A DNA stretch of 64,000 nucleotides from Vicinamibacterales bacterium (GTDB lineage: Bacteria; Acidobacteriota; Vicinamibacteria; Vicinamibacterales; UBA8438), in the NCBI GenBank assembly GCA_958296065.1, contig CATQHX010000010.1, positions 124,001 through 188,000 on the forward strand. Reading direction: 5' to 3'. How positions within the stretch are numbered: position 1 is the first letter of the stretch; each line of letters begins with the position of its first letter. The notes beneath the pieces were generated by a model. The model worked only from the letters and a program-made list of their open reading frames with translations. It was not told the DNA's origin and made no database searches. The position numbers and the translations under genes are program-made. Shown piece by piece: positions 4,681 through 28,214 of this stretch.

Positions 4681-7048
4681 TATTCTGCCCGCAGGGCTGT
4701 CATCGGGTCGAGCCGGGCAGCCCGGCGCGCGGGAACCGCCGAAGCGGCCAGCGCGGCGAGGGCGACGACGAGGGCGACCGTGGCGAACGTGCCTGCATCG
4801 TACGGTCCGACCCCGTAGAGCAGGCCAGCGAGACTCCGGCCGGTGGCGGCAGCCATCGTCGTGCCCGCGACGAGGCCGACCGCGGTCACGCCCAGGCTGC
4901 TTCCCATGACCAGCCGGACGAGCCGGCCCGGCGACGCGCCGACCGCGGCGCGTATGGCCAGCTCCCGGCGCCGTTCCGCGACGCTCCGGGCCAAGGTGCC
5001 GAAGAGACCGGCCATGGCGACGGCCAGCGCGAGCGCCGCGAAGCCGGCCGCCGGCACGACGCGCAGCCGCCGCTCGGCGATCGTGCCGGCGGCATGGTCC
5101 GCGAGCGTGCGCACCTACGGAATCGGCAGCGACGGGTTCAAGGTACGGATGAGATCGCGAACCGCCGGGACCAGCGCCGCCGGATCGCCGGTGGTCCGCA
5201 CGACGAGGTGCGCTACGCCGGTCGGCGCACGCCGCCACGGGACGTACATCGAGCCCGCCCGCGGCGCGTCGAGGCCCCGGTGCTTCACGTCGCCGACGAC
5301 CGCCACGACCGGCGAGTCTCCGCGGGCGATGCCCAGGACATCGAAGTCGTAGATCATCGGACGGCCCACCGGATCCTGGTTCGGATAGGCGAAACGCGCG
5401 GCGGTCTCGCTCAGCATCACCGGGGACACCTCCGCGAGATCGTCGCCGGCATCGAATCTGCGACCGGCCGCGAGCGGCGTGCCCAGGGCCTCGAAGTAGC
5501 CGGCCGTGACCGTGCCGAAAGAGAGTGTGACGTACTCGGCGCGGGTCGCACTCTCGAAGAACATGCTGACCATCAGCGGCGCCTCGTCGGGAGGCAGCAG
5601 GCTGCCCACCCCGGCCGCCTGCACCCCGGACAGCCCGCGTACCCTCTCCAGCAGCGTGTCGACGAACGCCGTTGCGGCGCCCCCGTCGATGAACATCCTG
5701 TCGGCGAGCATCAGTCGCGCGGTCAGCGCCCGTCGCGATTCGAAACCACTATCTTCGTCGAGCAACCGGTCGACGGTGCGGACGAGCAGCCCGGTTCCGG
5801 TCAGCAGGACGATGGACAACGCGATCTGGGCGGCCACCAATCCGGCGCGCAGGCGCCTGGTCGTCGGCGAACCGGTCGCGAACGCCCCGCCTCGCGGGAC
5901 GGCAGCGTCACGTCTCGTGGCCGTGAACGTGGAAGCGCCGCCGCAGACCACGCCGACCAGCAGAGTCAGAACCAGACCCGTCAGGACGACCGGGAGGTCG
6001 ATGGCGACGCCGTCGAGGCGTGGCGTGACGCCGGCGGCCGTGGCCGTGAACAGCCGCAGACCGGCCCAGGCCGCCGCGAGGCCCAGGACAGGCCGCCGAG
6101 GGCCAACGCCAGACCCTCGACCAGCGCGGCCCGGACCAGTCGCGCCCTACCGGCCCCGAGAGCGATCCGGACGGCGAACTCCCGGCTCCGCACGACCGAG
6201 CGCCCGATGAGAAGGGTTACTGTATTCGCGCACGAGACGACCAGCACCAGCATCGCCGCCGCGATCGACACCCGGACCACCGGCCGCGCGCTTCCGAGCA
6301 GGGTCTCTTCCACCGACCTGACCGCGGCGCTCCAGGCCTCGCCGCTGATCTCGCGCGCGACCCGGTCGGCGTCGTCCCCGGCGTGGGCGATGGTCGTGCC
6401 CTCGGGCATGCGCCCCACGAGGCGATATCCACCCGAACCCTCCGGTACTACCAGCCACACGTCGACGTCGGCCGACGGAAACGCGAAGTCATCCCCCATG
6501 ACCGCGGCCACGTCGTAACGACGGTTCCCGACCGTCACCGCCTGGCCGAGGGCGGACCGGCCGGTGTCGTCCTCCATCGCGCGTGCCAGGGGCGTACTGA
6601 CCACGGCCCGGGCGTCAGCCCCCGGGAACCGGGACCTGACGCCCTCCGCGGCCGGCGCGCCGAGCACCTCGAAGAAGTCCTCGCTGACCGTGGCCACCTC
6701 CAGAACGCGGGTCGGCCCCACGCCCCGCACCACGCGTTCCCGCGCGTCGTAGCCGGCCACACGGGCTGTCCGTAGCCGTTGGTTCCACTCGTCGATCTCG
6801 TCGAATCCGACACGATGTTCCAGGCCGTCCTCTTCGTACACCTCCGCTATGGTGATCAGCCGGTCGGCGGCGACGTAGGGAAGCGGGCGCCAGAGCACCC
6901 CGTAGGCGACGGCGAGCACGGCGGTGTTGATGCCCAGACCCAGTGCCAGAATCCCTGCCGCCAACACGAACACCCCCGGATGTCGCACCAGCGAGCGGGC
7001 GACGTATCGTACGTCGTGGGCAATCGACTCGAGCATCGGGAACTCCAT
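4680..7048 (-). pseudogene. ADOP/MacB-like FtsX-family ABC permease, disrupted
   Basis: Starts MLESIAHDVRYVARSLVRHPGVFVLAAGILALGLGINTAV; frame lost near 6090 (GLALALGG|), in-frame TAG near 5115 (NPSLPIP*VRTLADHAAG), C-term PARRAARLDPMTALRAE. Confidence 0.8.
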
Positions 7049-7060
7049 CTCGTCCCCGCA

Positions 7061-7190
7061 ATTCTGCCCGCAAGGCAGCCGCCGGGTCGAGCCCGGCGGA
7101 CTCGGAGAACGCGGGCCGTCGCCGCCCGCCACGTTCCGGCGACCGGCCCCGACGGCTACAGATCGGGACCGGAACTTCCGATACCTGTAA
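7061..7190 (-). pseudogene. C-terminal relic of a second ADOP-like permease
   Basis: SESAGLDPAAALRAELRG parallels RLDPMTALRAE; DNA at 7061 (attctgcccgcaaggcagccgccgggtcgagcc) is near-identical to 4681 (attctgcccgcagggctgtcatcgggtcgagcc). Confidence 0.55.
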
Positions 7191-7207
7191 CACACGGGAG
7201 GTTGCAG

Positions 7208-7423
7208 ATGGCAAAGTTCATGGCCTGCCACGAGACCCGCACTCTGCGCCCCGGCTTCATCCCCATCGGAGACGTCACCAGAGTCGAGCCTGATGACCCG
7301 GCACGGGCGTTCTTCGCCTTTACGACGATCACGTTGAAGTCCGGCGAACGGGTTCACGTCACGGAACAGCCGGCCATGGTGCGCTGCATGGCGTACAACC
7401 CCCTGTGGATGATCGACGCGTAG
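7208..7423 (+). CDS. Small hypothetical protein (~71 aa)
   Basis: ATG at 7208, MAKFMACHETRTLRPGFIPIGDVTRVEPDD... Confidence 0.45.
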   Translation: MAKFMACHETRTLRPGFIPIGDVTRVEPDDPARAFFAFTTITLKSGERVHVTEQPAMVRCMAYNPLWMIDA

Positions 7424-7620
7424 GTCAACCGGGACACCGATGACGCTTCGGGCCTCGCGCGACCACAGCCGCATGGAGATCCCTGGAGACCCGGATCCGC
7501 TCGGCCGCCGACATACGGCCCGCGCTCACCGCGCGGGACGCGGTGGACGCCATGCGCGTCGCGTTCGGCGAGCTTCTCGAGGCTCCCTGACACCCACCGG
7601 GACCGTGATACGCTGCCTCC

Positions 7621-7900
7621 GATGGACACCCACGCGGCCGTGAGGATGCTGACCGCCGCTGGCGCGGAGGAGGCGCTTGCCGTCGCCGTTGGTCGATGTT
7701 GCTCAGAACGCCGCCGCTGACCACGGTCGCGGGTTGGCCACTCGCTCCGATCTGCGCGAAGTGCAGCGGGCGGATCTGGCGGCCCTTGAGGCCCGGCTGA
7801 CGTGGCGTTTCGCCGGTGAGATACTGGCGCAGACACTCGCGATTCTCGGCGGCGTGGTCGCGATCCTGCGCCTCCTGGATTCACCCCTACCGACCGACGG
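7621..7900 (+). pseudogene. Small coiled-coil/TM protein relic
   Basis: MDTHAAVRMLTAAGAEEALAV [frameshift] DVAQNAAADHGRGLATRSDLREVQRADLAALEARLTWRFAGEILAQTLAILGGVVAILRLL. Confidence 0.45.
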
Positions 7901-8154
7901 GGCCCGCCGGAACGCGAAGCTGGGTGCGCTCGTTACCCTCGCCGAGGCTCGGGAACTGGTACCCACCATTCCGGCCGGGAATCTGCGAGACGTAATCTGG
8001 CGATCCGTTCAGGGCTTCCTTTCTCATCGCAAAGCAGTCCTCGGCGCTCTTCGTCGAAGGACCGACTGGCGCCGCCCAGACCGGAGCGACCCGTTCGGCG
8101 AGCCGACGTCGGTCGAGGCCGGCCCGTCCGGCAGGATCCACCAGTGAGGGCAGA

Positions 8155-9345
8155 TTGACTACCTCGAGCGGAACGCCAATTCTGGTGTCAGAGACCTCCA
8201 GAACATTGCTCCGAGCCCCCAAGCGGTCGGAGCGCTGGTTGCAGGAACTCATCCACCGGCATCCGACGTGTCTACCGATGGACGAAATCGAGCCGGGCAT
8301 CGGGCGTCTGATCCCTGTTTGCATGGAGTTGCCCCTCCGCGTCGGCTGGGTTGACAACCTGTTCATCACGCCCGAGGGCAATCTAGTCATCGTTGAGGTG
8401 AAACTCTGGGGCAACCCCGAGGCTCGCCGCCAAGTCGTCGCACAGACCCTGGAGTACGCGACAGCGCTCTTCAAGCTCGACTACATCGAGTTGGAGGCCG
8501 CGGTCAGGAAGGCGGATTTGGGCGGAGAGAAGCCCCCGAAACACCTCTACAGCATGGTGGACGTAGCGGACGCTTTGCCCGAGAGCGAGTTCGCGGACCG
8601 CGTTTCGCGCAACCTGCGCGACGGACGGGTGGTCGTGTTGATCGTGGGCGATGAGATCCGCCCCGCAGCAGGTGAATTCGTGGCGGCGCTGCAGGCCCAT
8701 GCGAACTTCCACTTCACGTTCGCTCTCATCGAAATGCCGGTGTACACGTTACGCGGAACCAATGCTGCCAACGAGTACGTGGTCATGCCGCGAACGCTGC
8801 TGAAGACCGTCGAGGTACAGCGGTTCACCATACGGACGGAGGGCGGCGCTACTGTGGTCACGGACGCGGGAATAGATAAGCGAAAACCGTTGCGGCGGTC
8901 AACCATCTCGTCCAAGGAGTTCTCGGAGGCGATACGGGAACGTGCCCCCGACGTTCCCGACAAGCTGATGCAGTTTCTGGACGATGTGGCCGCTATCGAT
9001 GTGCGCGTCGAGTACCTCGCAGCGCTGAACCTCAAGTGGGATCAGCCGGCAGGCAAGCCCGTGAACCTTGGCACCGTGACGCGAAGCGGAGAGATCTGGA
9101 CTGACGCGACCTCCTGGACGGTGGACCGAGATCTGGCGGAAGAGTACAACCGGCGTCTCGCGCAACTCTTCGGCGGCAAGGTCAGGCACGGTACTACGGA
9201 GAAGGTGCCGAGGCTCTGGGTAGCTCGTCACGACGGCCCTCCGTTTCGTATCGAGGACGTGGCGGATCGGTTGTCTGCTTGGACTGGGATCATCGAAGAG
9301 TTCCAGAGCGCGGTGCGATTACGCGCCCAGGATCGCGAAACATGA
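8155..9345 (+). CDS. Hypothetical protein with PD-(D/E)XK-nuclease-like N-terminal region
   Basis: TPEGNLVIVEVKLWGNPEARRQVVAQTLEYAT: E-x-K strand followed by Q/Y helix. Confidence 0.6.
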   Translation: MTTSSGTPILVSETSRTLLRAPKRSERWLQELIHRHPTCLPMDEIEPGIGRLIPVCMELPLRVGWVDNLFITPEGNLVIVEVKLWGNPEARRQVVAQTLEYATALFKLDYIELEAAVRKADLGGEKPPKHLYSMVDVADALPESEFADRVSRNLRDGRVVVLIVGDEIRPAAGEFVAALQAHANFHFTFALIEMPVYTLRGTNAANEYVVMPRTLLKTVEVQRFTIRTEGGATVVTDAGIDKRKPLRRSTISSKEFSEAIRERAPDVPDKLMQFLDDVAAIDVRVEYLAALNLKWDQPAGKPVNLGTVTRSGEIWTDATSWTVDRDLAEEYNRRLAQLFGGKVRHGTTEKVPRLWVARHDGPPFRIEDVADRLSAWTGIIEEFQSAVRLRAQDRET

Positions 9346-9359
9346 CCGAGGGTTGCAGC

Positions 9360-9667
9360 TGTAGCCCAGAAAGCCCGGCGGCTGGTCGAGCTGCGGGACC
9401 GGTGGCTCAACCCGCCGGAGTGGGTCGCCTGGGTGGACGAGCCGGTGCTGGCTATCCGAAGCGGTCGGTTCTCAGCGACGAGGACGCGGCGAAGGCGCTC
9501 ACGAGACGAACGTTGACGAACCTCTACCACGCCCGGCCGCAGTGGCTCGCCGACTCGCCGACACGCCCGCGGCGCTCGATGCCGCCGCGGCGTCGGCCTA
9601 CGGCTGGCCCGCCGACATCGCTGATGACGATGCCCTGCGCGAGCTATTGGCACTCAACGGACGGTAG
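9360..9667 (+). pseudogene. C-terminal relic of a class I SAM-dependent DNA methyltransferase (MmeI-like tail)
   Basis: VAQKARRLVELRDRWLNPPEWVAWVDEPV [fs] GYPKRSVLSDEDAAKALTRRTLTNLYHARPQWLADSP [fs] DTPAALDAAAASAYGWPADIADDDALRELLALNGR*. Confidence 0.65.
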
Positions 9668-9807
9668 CGGGTCCACCCGCTCGCCAAGCTCGCGGCATCC
9701 TCATGCCTCACGGCAGGCGTTACGGCGGTCGCGGTCTGTGCCGACGAGATGGGCGATAATGGCCCGTGGGTCGCAGACTTCGTCGGCTCTGAATCCAGAG
9801 GAGACGC

Positions 9808-10605
9808 ATGAACGCCGAATCTGCGGCCATGCTGGTTTCTGGGATGCGGCGGGCCGCGTTCACGGCAGTCGTCATGCTGGCGCTGGTGGCGGCGCCGGCA
9901 GCGGCGCAACAGAGCCTTGATGCCGGGGGGCTGGTTTACGGTCTGGTGGGCGGTGGGTTCGGCGACGGCACATTCGTCGCGACCGGCGTTGGCGCTGGTA
10001 TCAGGCTGACGCGGCATCTTGGCCTGGATGTGGAACTGACGTACCTGTCGGGCGATGCTGCGGGAATGCCCACCCACGGGTACGGCGGGATTTCTGTCGC
10101 TGGCACGTTCGCCGTAGCGGATCCGGTGATCGGGGACATTCCGGCGTTCCCGCTTGGATTCGACCCCTGGTTCCCATCCGTTCGGATCGAGCACCAGCGG
10201 CGGGACGTGGCGACGTTCCTGACGAAATTCACGGTCGAGTTTCCGGTTGCGAATGGCCGGCTCTTCCCGTATCTGACCGGCGGCGGCGGGGTGGGGCGGG
10301 TGACGGAACGCTTCAGCATCGTCGTCGCTCCGATTCCCTGGATCCCATTAGACCCGCTGGGTACCGAACCGGTCGAGCACGCGTCGGATGGCATCAACAC
10401 GGTGCAGTTCTTCGACACTTCCATCTTCCCGTCGCCGGGCGAGTATTCCGAGCTGGGTTTGAGCCTCGTATTGGGCGGGGGCGTCGATGTGCGGTTGTGG
10501 CGCGGACTCGGGGTCGGCGTGGATGTCCGCTGGCTGCGGATCCTGCGCAGCTACGACGCCTTCGACACGGCTCAGGTGACCTCGCGGGTGAGCTACCGGT
10601 TCTGA
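9808..10605 (+). CDS. Outer-membrane beta-barrel family protein
   Basis: Signal peptide (AVVMLALVAAPAAAQQ), alternating Gly/aromatic strands, terminal aromatic (VSYRF). Confidence 0.65.
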   Translation: MNAESAAMLVSGMRRAAFTAVVMLALVAAPAAAQQSLDAGGLVYGLVGGGFGDGTFVATGVGAGIRLTRHLGLDVELTYLSGDAAGMPTHGYGGISVAGTFAVADPVIGDIPAFPLGFDPWFPSVRIEHQRRDVATFLTKFTVEFPVANGRLFPYLTGGGGVGRVTERFSIVVAPIPWIPLDPLGTEPVEHASDGINTVQFFDTSIFPSPGEYSELGLSLVLGGGVDVRLWRGLGVGVDVRWLRILRSYDAFDTAQVTSRVSYRF

Positions 10606-11408
10606 GACGGCGGACGCGTCGTCTGTGGGCGTTGGGGCGGGTCGTGATTCCAGCATTGTCGAACAAATGCCCGTTGTGAGCGTGCGCGGAGCCGGCGTCA
10701 AGGCCGATAGCCCGCGCAGCGGGTCGGCGCAGCCGAGCCTTGACGTCGGGGAGCACAAGCGGACTCTGAAGTGTGGTTGTCCTGAAATAGATGTGGGTCC
10801 TTGGCTCGGCGCGCGGGCCGTAACTGGTCGGCAGGCCTTGCTGGATGCGCCGCCGGGCCGGCCTCGGGCGGTGTCCGGTGCGACTCCCGGCGTCGCCCGT
10901 GAAGCCCTGTTCTTTTGGGCGGAAGCGGGGAGAACGGTGTCGTCGTATTCAAGTCCATGTGCCATCGATGCGTGGATTGTGTCGGACCCGACTGGACGAG
11001 CATCCCCGTGAGGCAGTGCCATCCACGGAGTCAGAAGTACGGCACGTCCAGCACCGGCTCCCAGGTTGAAGAGGTTGCGCACGGTGCGGACGATCCTCGA
11101 CAACCTGTCCGTCAGAAGACGAAGTTCGTCGTGACGTTCCTTCAGGAGCATCCGACGTGACGCTGCACTTGACGCTGCCGTGTTCGTCGTGGCTTAATCA
11201 GGTCAAGCTGGTGGGTTCTCGACGATTCAGCGGGACTTGCCGTCGCGGGGACTCTTCACGTCGACGACGGACCTCGCATCGCTGCTCCGTCGCTACGTCG
11301 GCGCCTGCCCGATGCGGGCGAAGCTTTTCCGCCGGAAGTACGCCAATCCCACTCGGCGCCTCCCTCACGGAACACTTTTTCACCGACACGCCCCCAAGGA
11401 GCAGCACT

Positions 11409-12947
11409 GTGGAGTTAGCCATCACCGACCGACTTCTTCGAGATCTCGGGGCTCTCTCTCCGTCCCTGTACAAGAAGTGTCAAGAACTTATCCAGGAACT
11501 TCGCGCCGTCAAGACCGGCGCACTCCGTCAACAGGCGCGACCAGGCTGGCGGTTGCATGATCTGCGGAGTTCCGACATGCTTTCGCTGTCCGTAGACATG
11601 AACTACCGGTTGCTAGCTCAACTTACCGGCAGTACTCTCATGCTTCATAGGGTGGTAAAGCACGACCTAGCGGACCGAGCCAATGTGAACCGAAATACTC
11701 GCGCTCAAGCTGTCGCGACCATCAGTGGCGCTGAGCTCAGGCCTAGCGACATCTACAACGCACTACTCGCGTTCGGCATCGAGGAGACAGATGCCGAAGA
11801 CTTCTCTGCCTGCAATACGGAGGACGATCTTCTTGAGGCCTTGGCCCGCGCGCCAGAAGCCACGGCTAACCTAGCGCTCACACTGTATGAGACCAGCGGT
11901 TTGGTCATTCCTGAGGCGCGTTTTCGCATTCTCCAGCAAGATGATGACTTCGCACTTCTCCTCGATACCGGTGGCCTAGACTGGGAAACATACTTGCACC
12001 CGTCGCAAACTTTTCTTGTGGAATTGCCAGCTTCCGTTCGCGCCGCGGTCGTCGGTTCTGCTGGCACCGGAAAGACCGTCTGTGCTTGGCACCGTGCTAA
12101 GCACTTGATAGAGGCCGGGGTCTCGCTAGGATTTGTTTGCCCGCACGACTCAGTTCTCGATGTATCCAAGACACGCTTGCTACGAATGGTCGGTGCACAC
12201 GAAGATGGGAACTATTTCCTTGTCCCGAGACAGCCCGACGACCTTTTGCAACTTGCCGAGGTCGTCGACCACATCATCATTGATGAAGGACAGGAAATAC
12301 CAGTGACTTGGTTAGCGAGACTTGCCGAGAGGGTCAACGGCAGGGGGGGCATGACGCTGTTCTATGACCTCAACCAACTCGGCGGCAATATTCCAGCTGG
12401 CGATCGTACGCGCTACCGGAGACGTGTAACGGATTGGAAGATGATGCTGGATAGTGTTCCCCGGATGCAGAAGTTTCGGTTGGCCATCAATTACAGGAAC
12501 GCTCGCGAGATTGCCGAGAGTTACCTCGGTCTTCTTTCGGAGGCACTTCCCGCAAAGCCGTTGGCCGACGTTCCGGTTTTCGAAACAGGTGAGGTCGTGC
12601 GCCGAAGGATCCTTGCCCAGGAAGTGGACGATGTTGTGACAAGTCTTCTCCATCGCCTGCTGCAAGAGCATTCGCCTCGAGACATTGGAATAGTCTGTCT
12701 CGACCGGGGGACGGACCGGCTACGCCGCGTGCTGCTGAAACGGAAATTCCCGGTGGCGGTAGATCCCATGTGCGACAGCTTGGTCATTACTACTGCATCG
12801 AAGATTCGTGGTCACGAACGGCAAGTGGTAATTGTGACGGTGAACGACTACGATGCCCTTTGCCGAAATTTTGGTGCTGCCATCGATGCGTATATTGCAA
12901 TGTCGAGAGCCGTGAAACGTCTCATCGTAATTGAGGCCGCAGCCTGA
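11409..12947 (+). CDS. UvrD-like helicase with RelE/ParE-like N-terminal domain
   Basis: GTG at 11409; N-term LLRDLGALSPSLYKKCQELIQELR...NYRLLAQLTGSTLMLHRVVKHDLADRAN; Walker A VVGSAGTGKT, Walker B IIIDEGQE, INYRN, AYIAMSRAVKRLIVIEA. Confidence 0.7.
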   Translation: MELAITDRLLRDLGALSPSLYKKCQELIQELRAVKTGALRQQARPGWRLHDLRSSDMLSLSVDMNYRLLAQLTGSTLMLHRVVKHDLADRANVNRNTRAQAVATISGAELRPSDIYNALLAFGIEETDAEDFSACNTEDDLLEALARAPEATANLALTLYETSGLVIPEARFRILQQDDDFALLLDTGGLDWETYLHPSQTFLVELPASVRAAVVGSAGTGKTVCAWHRAKHLIEAGVSLGFVCPHDSVLDVSKTRLLRMVGAHEDGNYFLVPRQPDDLLQLAEVVDHIIIDEGQEIPVTWLARLAERVNGRGGMTLFYDLNQLGGNIPAGDRTRYRRRVTDWKMMLDSVPRMQKFRLAINYRNAREIAESYLGLLSEALPAKPLADVPVFETGEVVRRRILAQEVDDVVTSLLHRLLQEHSPRDIGIVCLDRGTDRLRRVLLKRKFPVAVDPMCDSLVITTASKIRGHERQVVIVTVNDYDALCRNFGAAIDAYIAMSRAVKRLIVIEAAA

Positions 12948-13745: not shown

Positions 13746-14054
13746 GTGGTGGCGTACCGTAGCGGGTGTTCAAGATCCTATCTTGATCCTCAATGGACGG
13801 GTCAAAGCCGGCTGTTCCTGCAACTCCAGGAGCGTCTGCACGGCGTCGTTCCACTGCTGTGGCCGCGCTCTCCGGTCCGCTGGCTCCACACGACCACGGA
13901 GTTGACGGATCCAACTGTGTTCTGCCTCGCCGGCGTCCGCAGAGACTGGTCGAGTCGCCGACGACAAAGAGCCGCACTCCTCCGCAGTCGCAGTTATGCC
14001 GGAACATCATAGGCGAGCACGGTAAGGACAGTGATCAATACAAAGTCTTCAACT

Positions 14055-15263
14055 TCATCGGGGTAGCAGTTTGTAATTCCATTCCCCGTGAAACTCATCG
14101 TGGACCAGCGCGAGTGCGTCCATCTGTTTCTTGGTCACCGTAACGCCCGTGGGATACTCCCCGGCATCGAGTTCGGCCCGGACCCGCAGCCCGGTTACCG
14201 TCCGGACGTTCCCGATGCGGTCGACGATGGTCTCATACGTCGTCAGCGGGGTGCCGCGCCAGTTCGCCGTGATGTGACAGAAGAGCCGGTGCTCGATCTT
14301 GTTCCACTTGCTGGTGCCCGGTGGGAAATGACTCACCTCGATGGTCAGGCCGGTCTCGTCGGCCAACTGCTGAAGCTCATGCTTCCAGGCGCGAGACCGA
14401 TACCCGTTGCTTCCGCCCGCATCAGCCGTGACGAACAGGGTCGTGGCGTCGGGGTAGGCACCGCAACCCATCTGATGCCACCAGTGGCGAATCGACGCCA
14501 CCGCGAACGCCGGTGTGTCGTGGTCCCAGCCCACGCTCACCCAGGCTTCGTTGCGCGCCATGTCGTAGACGCCGTACGGAATCGCCTTGCCCTCGGCGTC
14601 GGTCGGGAAATCATGCACCAGCACCGCCGGTGGCGTACCCTTCGGCTGCCATTCCCGCCCGCCGTTCTTGAAGTTCCCGACCAGCTCCTTCTTCTTCGTG
14701 TCGACCGAGACCACCGGCTGGCCGGCGGTCAGATGCTTGTCCGCGGTCTGGTTGATGTACTCGAACTGCGCGTTGCGGTCCGGATGCGTGGCGCCTTCCT
14801 GACGCTTGCGCGGCGACTGCAGCCGGTAGCCCAGACGGTGCAGCAGCCGGCCCACAGTCGTCGAACTCACCCGCCACCCCTGCTCGGTCAGCGCCGCCGC
14901 CAGCTTCGCGCGACTCTTGCACGTCCAGCGCAACGGAGATGTCGGGTCGCCGCGCGTGAGCGGGTCCACCAGCGCTTCGAGCGCGGCCTGGATACCGGGT
15001 TGATCCTGCTGGATGCGGGGCCGTCCGCCTCCAGGGCGTCGGATGCGGTCCGTCGGCGACTCGTCGCGGGCAATCTCCCGGCGTCCCCTGCGAATCGTCT
15101 CCCGAGCCAGACCGGTAGCCGACGAAACCACCGCGTCGCCACCGTAGCCGATGGCGAGCGACTCGGCCGCCGCCCACCGCCGGCGACTACGCTCGTCTAA
15201 CACCGGCGCGACCACGGCATACTTCGCAACCAGAAGCGCTTCCAGCTCGATGTCTCGCTTCAT
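14055..15263 (-). CDS. ISAzo13-family transposase
   Basis: VSVDTKKKELVGNFKNGGREW, FVTADAGGSNGYRSRAWKHELQ, HFPPGTSKWNKIEHRLF. Confidence 0.88.
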   Translation of the reverse strand: MKRDIELEALLVAKYAVVAPVLDERSRRRWAAAESLAIGYGGDAVVSSATGLARETIRRGRREIARDESPTDRIRRPGGGRPRIQQDQPGIQAALEALVDPLTRGDPTSPLRWTCKSRAKLAAALTEQGWRVSSTTVGRLLHRLGYRLQSPRKRQEGATHPDRNAQFEYINQTADKHLTAGQPVVSVDTKKKELVGNFKNGGREWQPKGTPPAVLVHDFPTDAEGKAIPYGVYDMARNEAWVSVGWDHDTPAFAVASIRHWWHQMGCGAYPDATTLFVTADAGGSNGYRSRAWKHELQQLADETGLTIEVSHFPPGTSKWNKIEHRLFCHITANWRGTPLTTYETIVDRIGNVRTVTGLRVRAELDAGEYPTGVTVTKKQMDALALVHDEFHGEWNYKLLPR

Positions 15264-15304: not shown

Positions 15305-16507
15305 TTAGGCCAGTGTCCTAAGTAGCAGCTCTCGATCGGGATCGTCAGGATGCTGGAAGACAAATCGCCAGCCCGTATCGTCATGCTGGTATGCGACATC
15401 GCGACGGAAGGAACGATGTAACCGCACCGTCTCTGGAACCCGAGCGAGTACCGCGGTGAAGTTCTTCGTGCGACTGAAGATGATCAGCGCCAGCTTGCCG
15501 TCACGCCACGTGGCATAGCCCAGCAACTGGTCCAGTGCTTCCTGGAGCGCCTTGGGTCCGGCCCAGAACTTTGTCTCGGCCACGAAGACGTTCTTGTCGT
15601 CCGCTCGGATCAGAATGTCTGTCTTACCGGAGCAGTTGAAGGTCTCCCCGCTCGCCTGACCTTCGTACTGCCCGTTGAGCTGGACCAGGAAGTGGGTGCG
15701 CATGTCCTCCTCCTTCATGCCCTTGAAGGCAGCTGGGCTACGTTCCATGACGTGCACCATGCCATCGATAATCGCGATGATGTTGTCGTACTCCTCCAGC
15801 TGGAGTGCAGGCTCGGGAACAAAGGGCTTCGCGCCGCGGGCAGGTTTTCGGACCCGAGGTCTCCGGCGTGCCGTAGGAACGGCGTACGTTCGGGGCGCGC
15901 CCTCCCGTTGACGAAGGGGATAGCCGAGCTGACTGACCATACCCTGGTCCTTGAGCAACTTCTCGCGGCGCCGCACAATCCGTTGCTTCGCTTCCGCACG
16001 AAAAGATTCGTTAAACGGAACAACATCGTTCCGAACCCAGGAGAGGTGCTCCCGGACCCCCGCTAGCTCCCGTTCGAATTCCGCCCTCAACGCCTCGGCG
16101 TCATGGTCGAGGCGCTCGTAGCGGAACAACAGTTCCCCATTTCCGACTTCGGCACACGGCGGACACGTCGAAAATGTAGAAGCCTGTGCGCCGAATAGCT
16201 CGTGTTCCCCGTCAAACGGAACATGGAATGACACTCTCGTACCGGACAAGTAGAACGGCCTGCTTCGGTCGAAAACGAAGCGCCCTGGGTCCTGGCTCAC
16301 GTCGACCTTTACTTCGTCCTGGCTCGCCTGAATGTCCGACTCTCTGAGGACCGGCGGCTCGATGCGCAGCTCCTCAACGAGCTCCTCCGCCAGCTGATCC
16401 GGCGGTCTTGAGAGAATCTCCGATGCGGGAAAGGCCTCGATGGCACGCGTCAGCTTCTCGTCCTGCGCTCCAATTGCGGCGCGCAACTCAAACCTGCGGA
16501 AGAGCAT
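15305..16507 (-). CDS. Hypothetical protein with C-terminal PD-(D/E)XK-like region
   Basis: GKTDILIRADDKNVFVAETKFWAGPKALQEALDQLLGYATW: D...E-x-K nuclease signature. Confidence 0.6.
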   Translation of the reverse strand: MLFRRFELRAAIGAQDEKLTRAIEAFPASEILSRPPDQLAEELVEELRIEPPVLRESDIQASQDEVKVDVSQDPGRFVFDRSRPFYLSGTRVSFHVPFDGEHELFGAQASTFSTCPPCAEVGNGELLFRYERLDHDAEALRAEFERELAGVREHLSWVRNDVVPFNESFRAEAKQRIVRRREKLLKDQGMVSQLGYPLRQREGAPRTYAVPTARRRPRVRKPARGAKPFVPEPALQLEEYDNIIAIIDGMVHVMERSPAAFKGMKEEDMRTHFLVQLNGQYEGQASGETFNCSGKTDILIRADDKNVFVAETKFWAGPKALQEALDQLLGYATWRDGKLALIIFSRTKNFTAVLARVPETVRLHRSFRRDVAYQHDDTGWRFVFQHPDDPDRELLLRTLA

Positions 16508-18074
16508 ATCTCTCTCTCCTCGCCTTCTGTTCATGGACTACTCGCGACGAGATCCGCACATCACTCGCACGGACGTCGCCTTGGGCACGATCGCCAACAT
16601 CTAATTGTACCCGGTCTACCCGGTCACCTGGCAACGGTCCCAAGCAGCTCCGGCGACACGCGCGAATTCCTGGACGGCGCAGCGCATGGACGGCCGCCCG
16701 ACGATCGAGACCGTTGTGGACTTGATCAGGGAAATGACTGGTCCACGTCGGGACCTGAATGATCTAGCGTCAGCCCTCAATAGAATTTCCGCCACCCATT
16801 CCATTCCCAATTCGGAGCTGGATTCGATCGCACTTTGCGGAACTGCTTCGGCTGGCTGCGGAGGGTTGCGGACGCGGTTCAAGACGGACTGGGAGGCTTC
16901 CGGTCCACCGCCGAGTAGCCGGTCGCGTTCGGCGACACGAAGCTGCTGGCGACGATAGGACGAAGCCGTACCAACGCTGCCCGGTGGGATGTGTCCCTCG
17001 GGAACAGCAGCAGCGGCGGGTTCAGGTCCGGATGCGGGGACCGTTCGTTCGCACTCGTCGACTGGCGCAAGAGCGACTTGGGGGCGGTCGATGGCTGAGT
17101 GCTCGAGCGTTCGACTCCTTCGTTCAGCTACCCCCTGGCTGTCGACCTCGGAGACGCCGACCTCCGTCGGCAGACTGCCGAGGTGTCGCGCGCGGACCAT
17201 CCCGCAGCGCGTTCCGGACGCGTCGGTCTACCGTCGGCTGTCCTTGACGCGTGGCTCGGCCGGACCTTCCTCGACGATCTCGGCGACGGCGCGGTTTGAC
17301 GGGCGTCCGGCTCGCCTGCGTCGAGCCCTATCGCTACGGCATGTTGCAGGGCGCCGACCTTGTATACGTGTGGTTCGTCGCCCCACGTGCGGCGATGAAC
17401 GGACCGTCGGCAACGGTGGGTGATGGTGCACGCCGACCAGCCCGCGCGCACGGGGATCGACCCGCGCGTCGAACTCCGGGACCGACAGTTGCCGGGGAGC
17501 GCCTCAGACACACGGAACGGGGAATGCGGCGTGTGGATGGCGAACATGCGTTCGCAGTGGAGCCTGCGGCCCGTTCTCGGATCGGAAGGAAGGATCCGGT
17601 GTGCGAACCGGCAAGGGCGGCGTCCGACCGGGCGTGGCCGTCACCTGACGACAGCGTCCTGCCGACCGGACCTCCGGAGACGGCGGCTGATTCGTGTCGC
17701 ACGCCTGCAGACTGCCGGGACTTCGCCGGTCGGTTCCGCACCTGCCCGGCGGTGGTGACGGCTGGCCTCGGGTCAAGTGCGCGGGCTGTCCACTTGAGTT
17801 GGTCGACCTTCGCGGCGTGGGTGTGGCGCGGCCGTCTCGGCGACGACCGCTGCGGCGAGTCGGAGCGCTTCGAACGCAACGTCGATGAACACGATGACGT
17901 CGCGGGCGTCGAGCCGCTGGATGATGCCCCAGCGCCGCTTGCTCGGCCCCCGCGTCATCTCGTCGAGGCTCAGCAGCGCCATCCGCGTGCGGTGCCGCAT
18001 CCGCAGCAGCGCCGCCGAAAGCCCGGGGGCCGTGGGCTGGCCGTCGCCCATCCCCCGCCTGGAAACGGCTTTTC

Positions 18075-18515
18075 CTACTGGTTGTGCTCATACCACTGCT
18101 CCATCGCGTGGTCCAGCAGCTCGATGGCGTTGCGTCGCGCCGCGTCGGTGGTCTCGATCGGAACTGCCGGATTGATGGCCGCGGCGTCCTCGAGCATCCC
18201 CGTCGCTACCGCGAAGGCGTCCGGCTCGTTGTAGATCGCGATGCGTTCGGCGTAGTCGTCGGGACTCTCGCCAGCGGGCGGCTTGACGACCGTGGCGTGG
18301 CGCACCTGCTGACTGTTGAAGCCAACCCCCGTCAGCGTGGTCTCGTCGACGCCGGCGGCCCCCAGTGATGCGCTCAGCCAGCCGACCTCCTTCTCCCAAT
18401 ACATCGCGAGTCGGTCGGTCAGCCGCTCGGCGTTGTCGAGCAGGCTGCGGCCGTGCGCGTCGTGCTGTCCGGCCAGCACCAGCCGAACGAAGCACTCGGC
18501 CCGTCCGGCGGCGAA
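18075..18515 (-). pseudogene. C-terminal fragment of unidentified protein
   Basis: RAECFVRLVLAGQHDAHGRSLLDNAERLTDRLAMYWEKEVGWLSASLG... in frame; its 5' part is antisense to the 18591 gene and looks non-native. Confidence 0.4.
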
Positions 18516-18590
18516 CGACCCGTAGCACCTCCGTTTCCTGCTATCATTCTTCCGACGACGACGCACACTCCGGGTCCAGGAGTCCTCCCA

Positions 18591-20897
18591 GTGCCGCACC
18601 TGCCCAGCAAGAAACTCGACACCATCACCGACGAAGCGGCGGACCTTCACCCACTTCTCGACGTTCTCTTTCGCAAACTTCCACATGTAGAGGATTATGA
18701 ATACACCCACGGAAAGGACGAAATGGGTGCCGACTTCGTGTTGGCGCTCAAGCACGACGTCTTCGACACAGTCGATCATGTCGGCGTTATTGCAAAGGTC
18801 GGCAGGATCACGCAAGATCACACTGATATAGAACGTCAGATTACCGAGTGCGGCGTGCCACGCTTTTTTCAAGGCGGCAAGCAGGAGATTCGCATTCGAG
18901 AGATCTGGGTAATCACTACTAAGCATATCACCCACGGCGCACAGAGAAAGATCTACGCCAACTACCCAACACGCAAAATCGTGTTCATTGATGGATCACG
19001 CCTTGAGAAGCTCATCGATCAGCATGTGCCGACAGCTTGGTCCCAACTGGCACTTCCTGTAGGTGAATACTTGCACGACCTGCGCACTAGACTCGAAGAA
19101 GAGGACAAGCGGTTTAGCCTAGTCCCGACGTCCGGACACAGTGTGTACGTCAAGCAAGACCTTTATCAGCTACCGGACCCGGAGTACCGCAGGAACCAGA
19201 AGGGCCGCCCCCCGAAGCGTCTCGCCCTCGACGATGTCGGCAAACAACGTCACACATATATAGAAGGTGGGATCGGCTCCGGAAAGTCAAAGCTCATCCG
19301 GCGCCTCGCCAGCAACCGTGCCGACCCATCTTCTTACGCCACGTCTAAACTCTTGCCGCTGGTTGTGTCCTACAATGACCTGATGGACACCCATGCTGGT
19401 GACATCCAGCGGGCTGTGGATAGCCTTGTGCCGGGAGGAGTTCGGGACATCCAGTCGCACGCGGAGTATCTCGTTTACGTCGATGCGTTCGATGAGCGCA
19501 AACTCGACCAAGGCGACCATGCTGCAGCTCTGACAAGTCTCTTTGACCAGGCAACCAAAGAGAGCCGGATTCGGGTGGTCGTAACCAGCCGATATATTCG
19601 AGGCCTGGAAAGCAGGAACAGTTTATCCCCCAGCATTCTGCGTTGCGAGCTTCGCCATCTTTCCATGGAGAAGGTTATTGAATTCCTTTCCAAGCTATGC
19701 GATAAGCTGAGTAAGAGCAGCCGCACAATCGAAGACCTCAAGAAATCGTCCCTGTTCAAGAACTTGCCGCGCAGTCCAATTTCCGCAATTCTTCTCGCTA
19801 GGCTACTGGATGAGAACTCCCAGGACATTCCTTCCAACATGACCGAGCTGTACTCCAAGTACATGGAACAAACTCTGGGCCGGTGGGATATCGAGAAGGG
19901 CCTTCAATCTCAAAAGGAGTATCAAGCCCTTGACCAACTCATGATGGCACTCGCGCGTCAGATGATTGACCATCAGCGGTCCCTTATGTCTGTTTCTGAA
20001 GCCAAGCAAGCCTTCGTGCACTACCTCGACGCGCGGAACCTAGGCCTCGACGTAGATGCACTATTTGCGCGGATGATTCAGCGTTGCGACATTATGGTCC
20101 TCAATACCGTTTCGATGACGGTCGGCTTTAAGCACCGCACCTTTGCCGAGTACTTCTACGCGAAGTCGTTTGGGCGCGAAGTTCTGGGAATTGACGAGCG
20201 CGTCTATAATCCTTATTGGATAAACATCTTCTTCTTTTATCTCGGCCTGCGAAAGGATTGCCCTGCGGAGCTCAGAGCCATTTATTCCATGGCGCCATCG
20301 ACGGAACTCGAGGCATGGATTAAGGTAGTCAACCTTTCCAACTATCTCTTGGCCGCGTACACCACACCGTACGAGGTAATTGTAGAGGGAGTCGAAGCCG
20401 CCGTGGTGAGCGGGGCTGAATTGTACCGAAAGATCGCACGCGATGGTTCTGATGGACCCTTCGGCGAGATGTCTAGGATGCACCTTTTATACTTTCTCCA
20501 GCTTGTCGTGCGTCGCGGGTATGCTTTTTCGTTCTTCGAGCGGGCTCTGGAGGAAGTAGCCCTGCGAATTGATGATGGCACTCTACCTCCTGAAACCAAG
20601 GCGTATGCCCTGTTCTTTTTGAATGTCACCATTGTTGACCTTCTGCCGGGAAGTGATTTTGATTTTCTACTTCAACACTATACGAAGGAACTGCCCTACG
20701 AGCTTCAGTTGGCACTGCAGCATGAGGCGGAAGGCGACCAACGAACTGCGTTGCTCAAAAAGCAAGACAAGTACCTGAAGCGCTCACTGAAGGGAAATTC
20801 CGCCCTGAGAGATTACATTGACAAGCTATATGATCAGCCCATTAACAAATGGCAATCGAAGAACGAATTGCCGAGTAGAACCGGAGAGGACGGCTGA
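18591..20897 (+). CDS. NACHT-like NTPase with N-terminal restriction-endonuclease-like domain
   Basis: GTG at 18591; GADFVLALKHDVFDTVDHVGVIAKVGRI...; P-loop HTYIEGGIGSGKSKLIRRLA; Walker B YLVYVDAFDERK; FKHRTFAEYFYAKSF typical of NACHT winged-helix region. Confidence 0.72.
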   Translation: MPHLPSKKLDTITDEAADLHPLLDVLFRKLPHVEDYEYTHGKDEMGADFVLALKHDVFDTVDHVGVIAKVGRITQDHTDIERQITECGVPRFFQGGKQEIRIREIWVITTKHITHGAQRKIYANYPTRKIVFIDGSRLEKLIDQHVPTAWSQLALPVGEYLHDLRTRLEEEDKRFSLVPTSGHSVYVKQDLYQLPDPEYRRNQKGRPPKRLALDDVGKQRHTYIEGGIGSGKSKLIRRLASNRADPSSYATSKLLPLVVSYNDLMDTHAGDIQRAVDSLVPGGVRDIQSHAEYLVYVDAFDERKLDQGDHAAALTSLFDQATKESRIRVVVTSRYIRGLESRNSLSPSILRCELRHLSMEKVIEFLSKLCDKLSKSSRTIEDLKKSSLFKNLPRSPISAILLARLLDENSQDIPSNMTELYSKYMEQTLGRWDIEKGLQSQKEYQALDQLMMALARQMIDHQRSLMSVSEAKQAFVHYLDARNLGLDVDALFARMIQRCDIMVLNTVSMTVGFKHRTFAEYFYAKSFGREVLGIDERVYNPYWINIFFFYLGLRKDCPAELRAIYSMAPSTELEAWIKVVNLSNYLLAAYTTPYEVIVEGVEAAVVSGAELYRKIARDGSDGPFGEMSRMHLLYFLQLVVRRGYAFSFFERALEEVALRIDDGTLPPETKAYALFFLNVTIVDLLPGSDFDFLLQHYTKELPYELQLALQHEAEGDQRTALLKKQDKYLKRSLKGNSALRDYIDKLYDQPINKWQSKNELPSRTGEDG

Positions 20898-20912
20898 GCC
20901 GATGGCCTGGGG

Positions 20913-21092
20913 CAGTGATCGATACAAAGTTTTCAACTTCATCGGGGCAAAAGTTTGTAATTCTATTCGCCGTGAAACTCATCGCGGACCAGCGCGAATG
21001 CGTCCATCTGTTCCTTGGTCACCGTAACGCCCGTGGGATACTACCCGGGGTCGAGTTCGGCCCGGACCCGGAGCCCGGTTGCCGTCCGGACG
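20913..21092 (-). mobile_element. Truncated ISAzo13 3' end (180 bp)
   Basis: cagtgatcgatacaaagttttcaacttcatcgggg...gtccggacg parallels 14029-14208 throughout. Confidence 0.85.
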
Positions 21093-21518
21093 TCGTCCCG
21101 GTGGTAAGCGTTCGGTCAAGGTGCGCCGTGAAAGGCGCCATTCCTCAGCGGGTGCGAATCCCGCCCGGCAACTGTCGTGTGTGGACGCCTCCCCGATTGT
21201 CAAGCCTTTCTGAGTCGCCTCGTTCTGCACCTCCTCAGCTCGCCCGAAGCGGCGGTGTCCGCGGTTGCCCAGGGCCGGTGTGCCGGGGTTGCCCGACCGG
21301 CGCGAGTGGCCGGTGTGGACCGCCGCCCAGATGCGTGCGGCCGGTCGAGTACCTCCTGGAGGCGGGCCCGGCTGTGACGGAGTCCGGATGTGCGCGCAGG
21401 CAGCAACGCGTTTCCGCCGGACTCTCAGCGCGGCCGCGTGCGGCGGCCGTCGATGTGCGTACGCATCGGCGACCGGCACGATGGTGTCGCGGGTCGCATC
21501 CAAGGAAGCAGGATCACG

Positions 21519-22864: not shown

Positions 22865-23360
22865 CGGCGATGTCGACGACGCCGCGGTCTTCCGCCGCGA
22901 CGCCGGACAGACCGACACGGTAGGACCCGACGGGTGCCTGCAAGTCCTCGCGGAGTTCCTCGAACACTGCCGGTCGATGCGCGCGCCCAAACGCGCCCGC
23001 GCGGTCGACATTCGCGTGACGCTGTCCACCCTCCACGGAGCCAAGGGGCTCGAGTTCGACGCGGTCGTCATCGGCGGCTTCGACACCGAGCACCTGCCGC
23101 ACCGCGGTACACTCGCCTCCGCCGACGACAACGAGACCGCCGTGGAAGAAGAACGCCGGCTGGCGTATGTAGGCATGACACGCGCCCGCTCCGAGTTGTA
23201 CCTGAGCGTGCCAGCCGTCACCGGCCACGGCGCACGGCAGCGCCCCACCGAGCCGTCGCCCTTCCTGACCGAAATCCCCGAGAACCTGAGAACGACGACG
23301 GACAACGCGGACATGTCCGCAGGGCCGCTTGGACCCGAAAGGCCGGTGTTCGCAGTCTGA
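22865..23360 (+). pseudogene. UvrD/Rep helicase C-terminal fragment
   Basis: VTLSTLHGAKGLEFDAVVIGGFDTEHLPH...EEERRLAYVGMTRARSELYLS; no N-terminal helicase motifs upstream. Confidence 0.75.
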
Positions 23361-23435
23361 ATACCCACCGAAAGCGCCCGGGAACACTCCGCCACCGGCC
23401 TCACGGCACCCCCCGCTCGCTTTACAGATGAAGCC

Positions 23436-25046
23436 TTGCTGACGCTGCCCGGCTTCGAGCGGGCGGAGCGGCACGTGGAGCTGGCCGCCGGTCGCACGGC
23501 CAACGTCGACGTCGAGCTGCACGTCGGCGGGCTCTTCGAGGAGGTCACGGTGTCGGTGACCGGCACCGCCATCGACGCGCCTGCCATCAACATGCCCCAC
23601 GCGGTAACCGGGGTCAGCCGCGAGACGCTGGAGCAGCAAGGAGCGACGCAGCTCGTCGACCTGTTCCGGAACCTGAACGTCAGTCACGGCGTGGTCGGCG
23701 AGCGCAGCAGTTGGTACAACTCGAACCAGCCTGCGACCTTGACCGAGACCGTGGCCAACGTCAACCTGCGGGGGCTGGGCGCCTCGCGGACCCTGGTGCT
23801 CGTCAACGGCCGGCGCCATGTGCCGGTGCCGGCGCGTCTGATCGGGAGTCGCTTCGTCGACGTGAACACCATCCCGTCCATCGCCGTCGGACGACTGGAG
23901 GTGCTGAAGGAGGGCGCGTCGGCCACGTACGGATCGCACGCCGTCGGCGGCGTCGCGAACTTCGTCACGCGCGGCGACTTCCGGGGCCTCGAGCTCAACG
24001 TCGCGCACGACTACTTCGACGGCGCGGGCGACACGACCGTCGCCGGCATCTGGGGCGGCCGGATCGGGGGCTCCAGCGCGGTCTTCTCCGCCGAGCGGGT
24101 CGGCCGGCAGGAGCTGCGGATGGAGGAGCGCCCCTGGACGCTGGACCGGCTGAGCAGCGTTTCCGCCCGGAGCCGCGCCGGCTGGTCGGTCCTGGGGAAC
24201 CCCGGCACGTTCTCGCCCGGCGCACCCCTGCCGTGGGACGGCGACGTCTCCGATCCCCGCTGCGCCGACTTCGGGGGCCAGGACGAGGGCTGGACCTGCC
24301 GGTTCCGCTATGCGCCCTACGACAACCTGATCGAGCCCCAGCAGCATACCCGCGCCTTCGCCGAGCTGAACGGGCCGCTGAACGACCGCACCAACTACCA
24401 CGTCGAGGGACTCTGGGCGGACGCCGCGATCCCGGGCTGGTACACGACCCCGTCGTACGGCCCGGTCTCCACCTCCAGCAGCACCCTCATGGAGGTGGCG
24501 ACCGACCATCCGGGCCGGCAGGCGTTCTGCGACGCGTACGCCGGGCAGCCGAACGCCGATCCGACGGGCGCGTGCGCGGCGGAAACGCCCTGGTACTTCC
24601 ACGGCCGGCCGTTCGGAAGCTCGGGGCCCGGGCGCCGTGTCCGCCGTGAGTCCCGCACCCAGCGGGTCGCCGCGTCGGTCGACGGCAACTTCATGGCCGG
24701 CGGGCGGGACGCCCATTGGGACGTCGGCATCAGCTACTCGCGGGCACGGGGCAACTTCAACGTGCCGGGGGTCTACAGGGACCGGATCTTCCGCGCCTTC
24801 CGCAGGTTCGGCGGTCCCGACTGCGGGGTCGCGGCCGTCGCGGACCGCACGTCGCCCGCCGGCATGCGGCTCGGGCCTCTCGACGGTGCGCTGGCGGGCC
24901 AGGGACCCTGCATGTACTACAACCCGTTCAGCAACGCGATCGAGTACTCCGACCAACCCGGATCGCGATTCCGGAGCACGCCCAATCCGGACTACGTTCC
25001 CGCCCTTCAGGACCCGGGCCAGGTCTCGTCGGCCGACGGCCCGTAG
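23436..25046 (+). pseudogene. TonB-dependent receptor, truncated at both ends
   Basis: RTANVDVELHVGGLFEEVTVSVTG...VNLRGLGASRTLVLVNGRRHVP...GSRFVDVNTIPSIAVGRLEVLKEGASATYGSHAVGGVANFVTRGDFRG; no beta-barrel C-terminus. Confidence 0.8.
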
Positions 25047-25522
25047 AGCGAGGGGACGGCGACGTCGTTGATCCGCAGGTAGACGCCGAGCTGCGCCCGG
25101 TGGTGGATCAGGTGGTTCAGGACGAAGCTGCGGAGCACGGCCACCTTCGGCAGCGAGAACAGCTTCGTGCCGTTGCTCAACAGCGTCCACGGCTTCATCA
25201 GCTCGGCGTCGCTCGCACCGGCGATCGCCGCGCGCGCCTCGGCGCACGTCCGGTCGAACGTCGCCACGAGCTCCGCGGTGCCCGCGGGCGGCGGCGGCCC
25301 CGGCATCGGCTTGCCGCCGGGCGTCGTGTCGAACTCGCCCTGGTTGACGGTCAGCGTGCCCCACGACGGAAGGTTGGCTATGTGCCCGGCCAGCACGCTC
25401 ATCGAGAGGGACTTCGGGTGCGGCTTCCAGTCGAACTTGTCCTCCGGCACGCGCTCCAGTGTCTTGCGGACGCCGGCCATCTCCTGATCGAACTCCGGCA
25501 GCAGGCTCTCGCTGATCGCCAT
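25007..25522 (-). CDS. DinB family protein
   Basis: FDWKPHPKSLSMSVLAGHIANLPSW...LRSFVLNHLIHHRAQLGVYLRI. Confidence 0.85.
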   Translation of the reverse strand: MAISESLLPEFDQEMAGVRKTLERVPEDKFDWKPHPKSLSMSVLAGHIANLPSWGTLTVNQGEFDTTPGGKPMPGPPPPAGTAELVATFDRTCAEARAAIAGASDAELMKPWTLLSNGTKLFSLPKVAVLRSFVLNHLIHHRAQLGVYLRINDVAVPSLYGPSADETWPGS

Positions 25523-25836
25523 CTCGTCACTCCCCCATCGGATGCTCGCGGCCCAACCCGTCCGTTATCCGCTCCCCAGGCTGCCGCGCCCGGGCGGCTC
25601 AAGAGTCTACTAGCCGAGCGTGTACGTCACACTACGCGATAGCCATGACGTACGGCTCGCGAAGCACCTGGGCGCCGCGGCCGCCGAGCGCCTCTTCAAC
25701 GCGACCTCGAGGAAGGCCGCGATCGCCGAGCTGCGCAGCATCCTCGAAGAGCACCTTGGCCGGTTGCCTGAAAAAAAAGCGGGATCACCTCAGCCGCGCC
25801 CGGCTTCGGAGTTTCCGTCAGTATAGGAATGATCCC

Positions 25837-27042
25837 ATGGCGCACGCCGTCGACCGGATCGTCGTCGCCCTCCGCCTCGCGGCTGGTCTCGGCATCGCCG
25901 CGGCCGGCCTCGTCGCCGTGCTGCCGCATCCGACTGCCGGCCTGTGGATGGCGAGCATCGTGCTGAGCGAGGGTGGTTACTGGCTGGCGTTGCTCGCGTC
26001 GCCGCTCGTCGTCGACTTGCGGGCCTGGCGAGGGAGCGAGGACGGACACCCCGCCCCTCGCATTCTGGCCGCGACCGCGGCGCTCGCGGGCATCGTGCTG
26101 CTCCTCAGCCCGGTCGCAGGGGCCTACGCCGTCGCCCGCACGCTACCGGACCTGCTCGAAGCGCGCTTCGGGACGCCCGTGCGGGGGCCGCTCGCGGAAC
26201 CGCCGCGGCCGGCGCCGGTCTCGCTGCCGGCGCTGCTCGCCGGAGTCAGCTCTGGCGAAGTCGTCGCCGAGGAGCACGTGTACGCGGTGCGGGAAGAAGA
26301 CGACCTGCGCCTCGACCTCTACCGGCCGGTCCGTGCGGAGGGAGCCCTGCCGGTGGTCGTGATGATCCACGGCGGGGGCTGGTCGACCGGCGACAAACGG
26401 GACTTCCCGGCCCTCAACGACTACCTGGCGGCGCGCGGCTACGTCGTGGCCGCCATCGGCTACCGTCTCCTTCCCGACGCGCGGTTCCCGGCCGCCCAGG
26501 ACGACGTTGCGGAAGCCATCCGCTATCTCGGCTCGCTGGCCGAGACGTACAACCTCGACCCAGACCGCATCGCCCTCGTCGGGCGTTCCGCCGGCGGCCA
26601 GATCGCGCTCCTCGCCGGGTACGCCGCCGGGAGCCCGGCGATTCGCGGCGTCGTCTCCTTCTACGCGCCGACCGCGCTCCGTTGGGGCTACGCGAACCCC
26701 GCCAAACCGGGCGTCATCGACTCAAGCGCGGTTCTCGACGCCTACCTCGGCGGCCCGCCCGCGACGCACGGCTCGCAGTACGACGCCGCGGAGCCGGCGC
26801 GCTTCGTGTCCGCGTCGACACCCCCCACGGTGTTCATCCAGGGGTTGCGCGACGAGCACGTCTCGCCGTTCCACGCCGAGTTCGTCAGCGCGCGCCTCCT
26901 CGAGGCCGGTGTCCCGCACGCGCTCGTCCGCCTGCCGTGGGCGACGCACGGCTGCGACTACCTGTTCCGGGGCCCCTGCGGGCAGGTAAGCACGTTCGCC
27001 GTCGAGTGGTTCCTCGACGCCGTCCTGCGGCGAGAACAGTAG
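25837..27042 (+). CDS. Alpha/beta hydrolase (BD-FAE/esterase-like) with N-terminal TM region
   Basis: VVVMIHGGGWSTGDKRDF, IALVGRSAGGQIALLAGY, DEHVSPFHAEFVSARL. Confidence 0.85.
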   Translation: MAHAVDRIVVALRLAAGLGIAAAGLVAVLPHPTAGLWMASIVLSEGGYWLALLASPLVVDLRAWRGSEDGHPAPRILAATAALAGIVLLLSPVAGAYAVARTLPDLLEARFGTPVRGPLAEPPRPAPVSLPALLAGVSSGEVVAEEHVYAVREEDDLRLDLYRPVRAEGALPVVVMIHGGGWSTGDKRDFPALNDYLAARGYVVAAIGYRLLPDARFPAAQDDVAEAIRYLGSLAETYNLDPDRIALVGRSAGGQIALLAGYAAGSPAIRGVVSFYAPTALRWGYANPAKPGVIDSSAVLDAYLGGPPATHGSQYDAAEPARFVSASTPPTVFIQGLRDEHVSPFHAEFVSARLLEAGVPHALVRLPWATHGCDYLFRGPCGQVSTFAVEWFLDAVLRREQ

Positions 27043-27058
27043 GGTGTCGAGTCGCTCT

Positions 27059-27620
27059 TGCCGCGGGTGTCAACTCGCGAGCCGGTGAAAAATGCAGCCC
27101 TCGGCGAAGCAGCAGCTTGCCCAACCTGTGCCGGCAGCGCTGTCGGTCCGCGCGAGCGTCATCGCGGGCTCGGCACAGGTCGCGAACCGCTTCTTCGGCC
27201 GGCGTCGGCGCCCGTACCACCGTCAACAGGCTGGCCCGGTGCAATTCCGCCAGCTTCCGGGCATCTCGTCGATCGGTCTTGACCCGATCACCCGGTTTGC
27301 GGGGCACCAGCGCCGGCGCGATCACGTCGCAGCGGACCCGGTCCCGCTCGAGCTGCCGCTGCAACGCATACCCGCACGGCCCGGCCTCGTAGCAGCACGC
27401 GATGGGACCGGGTGCATCCTTTTCGAGCTTCCGCCGTAGACGGTTCACCGCCCGGACCTCATTCCGCACCGTCCAGATAGTCGGCTCGGCCGCGTCCGGC
27501 GCCAACACCGCGACCTGCAACTCAACGGGGGAGGTAGGCAACCCGATGAAAACCTGGTGCAGTTCCAAGCGCCACGACGCCGACGGCGACGTCTTCATCC
27601 ACCAGCCCACGTCGCGATGG
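27059..27620 (-). pseudogene. IS110-family transposase N-terminal fragment
   Basis: RRKLEKDAPGPIACCYEAGPCGYALQRQLERDRVRCDVIAPALVPRKPGDRVKTDRRDARKLAELHRA. Confidence 0.75.
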
Positions 27621-27688
27621 TCGAACCGAGCGGCATCGGCGACAACAACGTGACCGACATCGTGGTCGCACACAGGCCGGGCTCGCGC

Positions 27689-27736
27689 TCGTTCGTAATC
27701 AGCAGGTCAGCGGTTCGAGTCCGCTCGCCGGCTCCA
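27689..27736 (+). pseudogene. 3' half of a tRNA (Thr-CGT-like): anticodon loop to CCA
   Basis: ttcgtaatcagcaggtcagcggttcgagtccgctcgccggctcca: perfect T-stem AGCGG/CCGCT with TTCGAGT loop, acceptor 3' strand CGCCGGC-T-CCA; no matching 5' half upstream. Confidence 0.7.
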
Positions 27737-27983
27737 GGCTTTCTCCTTATATTTCAGATACTTACGAGCGTACTCCGGGTTCTGATTCCGTGGCGTCTGC
27801 TCGCGTAGGGTGCATATAGGGTGCAGATCCCGATCCTCTGGCGTTCCAGCATGGGCCGGCTCCTTGCTTGCAGAGCGTAGTGACCCCAACATCGCCCGAC
27901 CGATCATCAGGTCGAGGCGGCCGAGCAGAGGCGGCTCGACGCGGATGATCGGGATGGCACTCCTGGCCATGAGGGCGCCGTCG

Positions 27984-28214
27984 GCGTCCGTATCCTCGGC
28001 GGCCTCTCCCTCGTCAAGAAGCACGGTCCCGCCGTCGTCGAGGACGCCGCCACCAGCGCGATCGAACTCGGCGTGCCCACCTACCGTTTCCTGAAGCGCT
28101 ACCTCGACCGCACCCCGTCGCGCCGCTGTCGTTGCGCCAAGTCGACCCCCTCATCCGCGCACTGACCGTCTACCGCGATCTGATCCAACGTAGAACAGGA
28201 GCCCCATCATGAAT
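27984..28214 (+). pseudogene. IS21 istA C-terminal relic (frameshifted)
   Basis: GGLSLVKKHGPAVVEDAATSAIELGVPTYRFLKRYLDRTPSR [fs] PLSLRQVDPLIRALTVYRDLIQRRTGAPS*. Confidence 0.65.

Follow-up and report, generated by a model that had tools for sequence, protein, structure and literature searches.

A divergent bNACHT25-like nuclease-NACHT-NCH1 gene, probably antiphage, in a Vicinamibacterales genome

The window, that is, the whole stretch of 64,000 nt analysed here, carries an intact gene for a nuclease-NACHT protein, in which no internal stop codons occur (Table 1). Its open frame spans positions 18453 to 20897 (+). We place the start at the GTG codon at 18591, where AGGAG occurs approximately 10 nt upstream; this start is in line with the annotated starts of relatives in an alignment and puts the N-terminus, including D48, in register with bNACHT25. 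The gene is richer in AT than its surroundings, as had been remarked from the letters of the window (the sequence-only reading): its GC content is 52.6% (GC3 62%) vs 65.5% for the window. A divergent ORF of 286 amino acids (18075–18935, minus strand), with no convincing family match, overlaps the start of the NACHT gene; the true start of this ORF is probably further in. An antisense ORF common to relatives (19475–19864) was considered as a partner and rejected, for it simply mirrors the conserved coding strand.

Downstream of the gene lies a relic of ISAzo13, as the sequence-only reading had it, although the distance it gave (15 bp) needs correction: the relic begins 12 bp past the stop codon. 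It matches the transposase 3′ end (14026–14217) of a full ISAzo13 copy situated upstream of the gene. The relic is a neighbour, outside the defence system. Truncation of the nuclease-NACHT C-terminus by this element was considered and rejected, because the relatives end at about the same position; the C-terminus, also described in that reading as short, is thus complete and consists of NCH1.

Table 1. Position of the nuclease-NACHT-NCH1 gene, its predicted domains and the adjacent relic in the window.
Feature	Coordinates	Strand	Basis
bNACHT25-like nuclease-NACHT-NCH1 gene, complete, 768 aa	18591..20897	+	GTG start, ORF, domain matches, alignment
N-terminal effector domain, PD-(D/E)XK/Mrr-like nuclease, residues ~1–175	18591..19115	+	E44, D48, K69, Q83 conserved; fold match; weak Mrr_cat match
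NACHT NTPase module and winged-helix region, residues ~212–520	19224..20150	+	P-loop 226–233, Walker B 298–302, R334, HRTFAEYF with H515
C-terminal NCH1	20340..20849	+	PF22728, E 9.6e-41; helical in full-length model
ISAzo13 relic, 194 bp, terminal repeat and transposase 3′ end	20910..21103	-	90% identical to 14026–14217

The C-terminal NCH1 domain (Pfam PF22728) was recognised at 139.8 bits, where Pfam sets the cut-off at 27. For the window protein alone, the Pfam matches to NACHT and to Mrr_cat are weak and below the cut-off; a relative from Enterobacter kobei (L006), a probable near neighbour of bNACHT32, scores above it for Mrr_cat. The motifs that the sequence-only reading had pointed out, a D...(Q/I)xK-like pattern near the N-terminus, a P-loop GGIGSGKS (G226–S233) and a Walker B motif YVDAFDE (D298, D301, E302), are all present. 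In alignments, the P-loop, Walker B and D48...K69 are kept in 12 to 16 relatives, far beyond chance, most of these relatives being only 30–51% identical to the window protein; D48 occurs in all the aligned proteins. Both Walker A and Walker B of the central NACHT module are thus in place by alignment, and the module has NLR fold matches besides.

In Mrr-type enzymes, E or Q is usual two residues before the catalytic lysine. At the corresponding position before K69, the window protein has an Ile (not E, Q or D), and every close relative has I or V, Q being found only in a Deinococcus outgroup (L007). The Ile is no argument for a dead enzyme, because bNACHT25 shares the I-x-K motif and is active. 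The role of the missing residue may fall to Q83, which is conserved, or to E86 in the helix that follows.

An AlphaFold model of residues 1–180, built with 11 sequences (pLDDT 82.6), finds its best folds in the PDB in MspJI (E 7.4e-5 to 4.4e-4) and AspBHI (E 7.9e-3), followed by weaker matches to FokI, HamA of Hachiman, SPARDA and Avs4; TM-scores for the leading nuclease matches are moderate (0.38–0.54). The full-length model (pLDDT 82.2) matches NLRC4, NOD2, NLRP3 and Avs3. Modelling thus gives a predicted restriction-endonuclease fold at the N-terminus and a predicted NLR-type NACHT core. A PDB search with the single sequence returned a chance match only.

The window protein aligns end to end over 750 amino acids with WP_001702659.1 (33% identity, 55% similar, E 1e-143), a protein annotated in E. 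coli (genome L021) and bearing the accession given for bNACHT25 (PMC12169576). The E. coli protein bNACHT25 provides antiphage defence and degrades DNA, and both activities are lost with D48A, while H506L is hyperactive (PMC12169576). The catalytic D48 of bNACHT25 is also D48, by the same number, in the window protein, and its H506 corresponds to H515 within HRTFAEYF. The NCH1 domain is given in the literature for bNACHT25 and bNACHT32, antiphage proteins of clade 6 with N-terminal PD-(D/E)XK DNase domains (PMC12169576). Full-length homology to bNACHT25 and the PD-(D/E)XK-type fold together bear out the proposal, already made in the sequence-only reading, of a nuclease-NACHT defence protein; the two findings that this reading had named as refuting it, an N-terminus devoid of a nuclease fold and best matches to non-defence NTPases, were looked for and did not emerge. 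Judged by its sequence, the gene product is a new, divergent member of the known, experimentally characterised bNACHT25 antiphage family.

A genome scan, plasmid searches and a search in E. coli yielded roughly a dozen additional relatives of full or nearly full length, along with a remote one. One bNACHT25-like gene, in E. coli FDAARGOS_1249 (L022, 201–2460), is annotated as two overlapping ORFs, and this copy is therefore apparently frameshifted. In a tree confined to the relatives collected here, the window protein forms a branch (support 99/100) with proteins of Bryobacterales (52% identity), Nitrospira (46%), Geobacteraceae (45%) and Anaerolineae (44%), the enterobacterial and other Pseudomonadota proteins falling outside. 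The protein is absent from three genomes of the same genus; among 297 genomes drawn from the same phylum, it occurred in full length only in the source genome. Several relatives reside on plasmids (conjugative) or in prophage-like surroundings; this patchy distribution fits horizontal spread. No relatives were found in viral contigs (single-sequence search) or in phage records. A conserved partner gene beside the relatives was sought, and none was found; therefore, the nuclease-NACHT-NCH1 gene is probably a single-gene system, as is the case for bNACHT25.

With both flanks as queries, we sought an empty site in same-genus genomes; no clean site was obtained, because both flanks hit numerous short, dispersed pieces in each of the four genomes. 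Such matches, mostly of 70–97% identity, are made by the segments 5000–11000 and 23000–28000 in the source genome itself and in the same-genus genomes. Repeats and gene fragments abound in the flanking region, among them a piece of a TonB-receptor plug at 23436–25046. At 2 kb from the NACHT gene, a protein of 409 amino acids (15305–16534, minus strand) matches PDC-S54, a candidate defence family in PADLOC (E 2.1e-144), and its C-terminus (TDILIR...FVAETKFW) looks, by eye, to have a PD-(D/E)XK motif of its own. Downstream, a fragment of 127 amino acids (22977–23357, plus strand) corresponds to the C-terminus of a UvrD-like helicase, with GajB as its best PADLOC match (E 1.6e-23); it is probably what remains of a UvrD gene, whether Gabija-like or of another kind. 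Another ORF, of 596 amino acids and with a lower GC content of 56.7% (11157–12947, plus strand), weakly matches AAA/UvrD-type helicase models (RTasNERD-Hel, E 1.3e-7) and is possibly a further defence gene.

With the intactness of the gene, its domain order, the conserved catalytic and switch residues and the full-length homology to a tested protein established here, we consider it very probable that the gene forms an antiphage system by itself and that its product is a receptor like bNACHT25 (clade 6), in which infection would turn on the NACHT module and the nuclease would then degrade DNA. Before infection, the module would be closed, with ADP bound. Infection would be sensed by the C-terminal half including NCH1, either directly or through a host factor, such as DnaJ for bNACHT25, of which the activation by phage proteins is DnaJ-dependent, with subsequent degradation of DNA by the nuclease (PMC12169576). 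Nucleotide exchange in the NACHT module, followed by oligomerisation, would bring the N-terminal PD-(D/E)XK domains together for the degradation of DNA, whereupon phage growth would stop, at a probable cost to the cell. For the window protein, we infer antiphage activity, trigger, oligomerisation and DNA cleavage by analogy; certainty is lowest for the trigger, which may differ, because identity to any tested member is only about one third.

Three other readings deserve to be weighed. That the gene is decaying in a scrap region and intact through chance would agree with the IS relics and gene fragments that fill its surroundings, but 768 codons without a stop, the retention of every motif and the normal C-terminus make this highly improbable. 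Other STAND proteins are regulators, and the product could likewise be a NACHT regulator with a role unrelated to phage, for instance, in plasmid control or stress-induced cell death, to which the location of several relatives on plasmids or in prophages would lend itself. We regard such a role as unlikely, since the full-length tested relatives, bNACHT25 and bNACHT32, are antiphage, and the location on mobile elements, the patchiness and the nearby defence candidate fit defence.

Alternatively, the same architecture could contain a catalytically dead nuclease, comparable to the NACHT-associated inactive REase domains in Pfam, that would serve in DNA binding or as a scaffold only. The I or V at the second metal-binding position in the close relatives speaks for it, as does a weak match of one relative (L010) to NA-iREase1. 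Nevertheless, E44, D48, K69 and Q83 are all retained in the window protein, and bNACHT25 cleaves DNA with the same I-x-K motif, an activity abolished by D48A (PMC12169576), so that loss of catalysis appears very unlikely.

A probable antiphage receptor of the bNACHT25 kind in this genome opens no new kind of system, but it takes the tested type beyond enterobacteria, into a distant branch of environmental bacteria. The conservation of D48, K69, Q83 and H515 across very different hosts marks parts that must matter; sensing may have diverged in the C-terminal half, which is more variable. Tentatively, the branch with Bryobacterales, Nitrospira, Geobacteraceae and Anaerolineae might have kept the nuclease and the switch and sense infection unlike bNACHT25, without DnaJ or by another viral trigger, its unusual D-x(20)-[IV]xK site being completed by Q83 or E86 of the next helix; we hold this to be possible, albeit doubtful.

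Amongst known systems, Avs (AVAST) proteins also combine an N-terminal nuclease with a STAND NTPase, but they measure approximately 1500–2000 amino acids and have a long sensor array, and no Avs family profile matched the window protein in a PADLOC scan. PADLOC is without a good model for the bNACHT25-like family: bNACHT25 itself gets weak NTPase matches only, and a blank result for this family therefore means nothing. The sequence-only reading had taken the short C-terminus as the sign of a distinct subtype; this does not stand, since that region is NCH1, a curated domain, and bNACHT proteins with a short C-terminus have already been described, with NCH1 in clade 6 and SNaCT in clade 14 (PMC12169576). 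The clade 14 proteins (bNACHT02, 11 and 12) share NACHT and a short C-terminus with the window protein, but have SNaCT rather than NCH1 and no discernible effector domain (PMC12169576), while the window protein ends in NCH1 and has an N-terminal nuclease fold. Closest in build are bNACHT25 (752 amino acids) and bNACHT32 (WP_057688292) of clade 6, membership of which we judged from homology and domains: the order of nuclease, NACHT and NCH1 is the same, whereas the window protein stands with its environmental relatives on a separate, well-supported branch.
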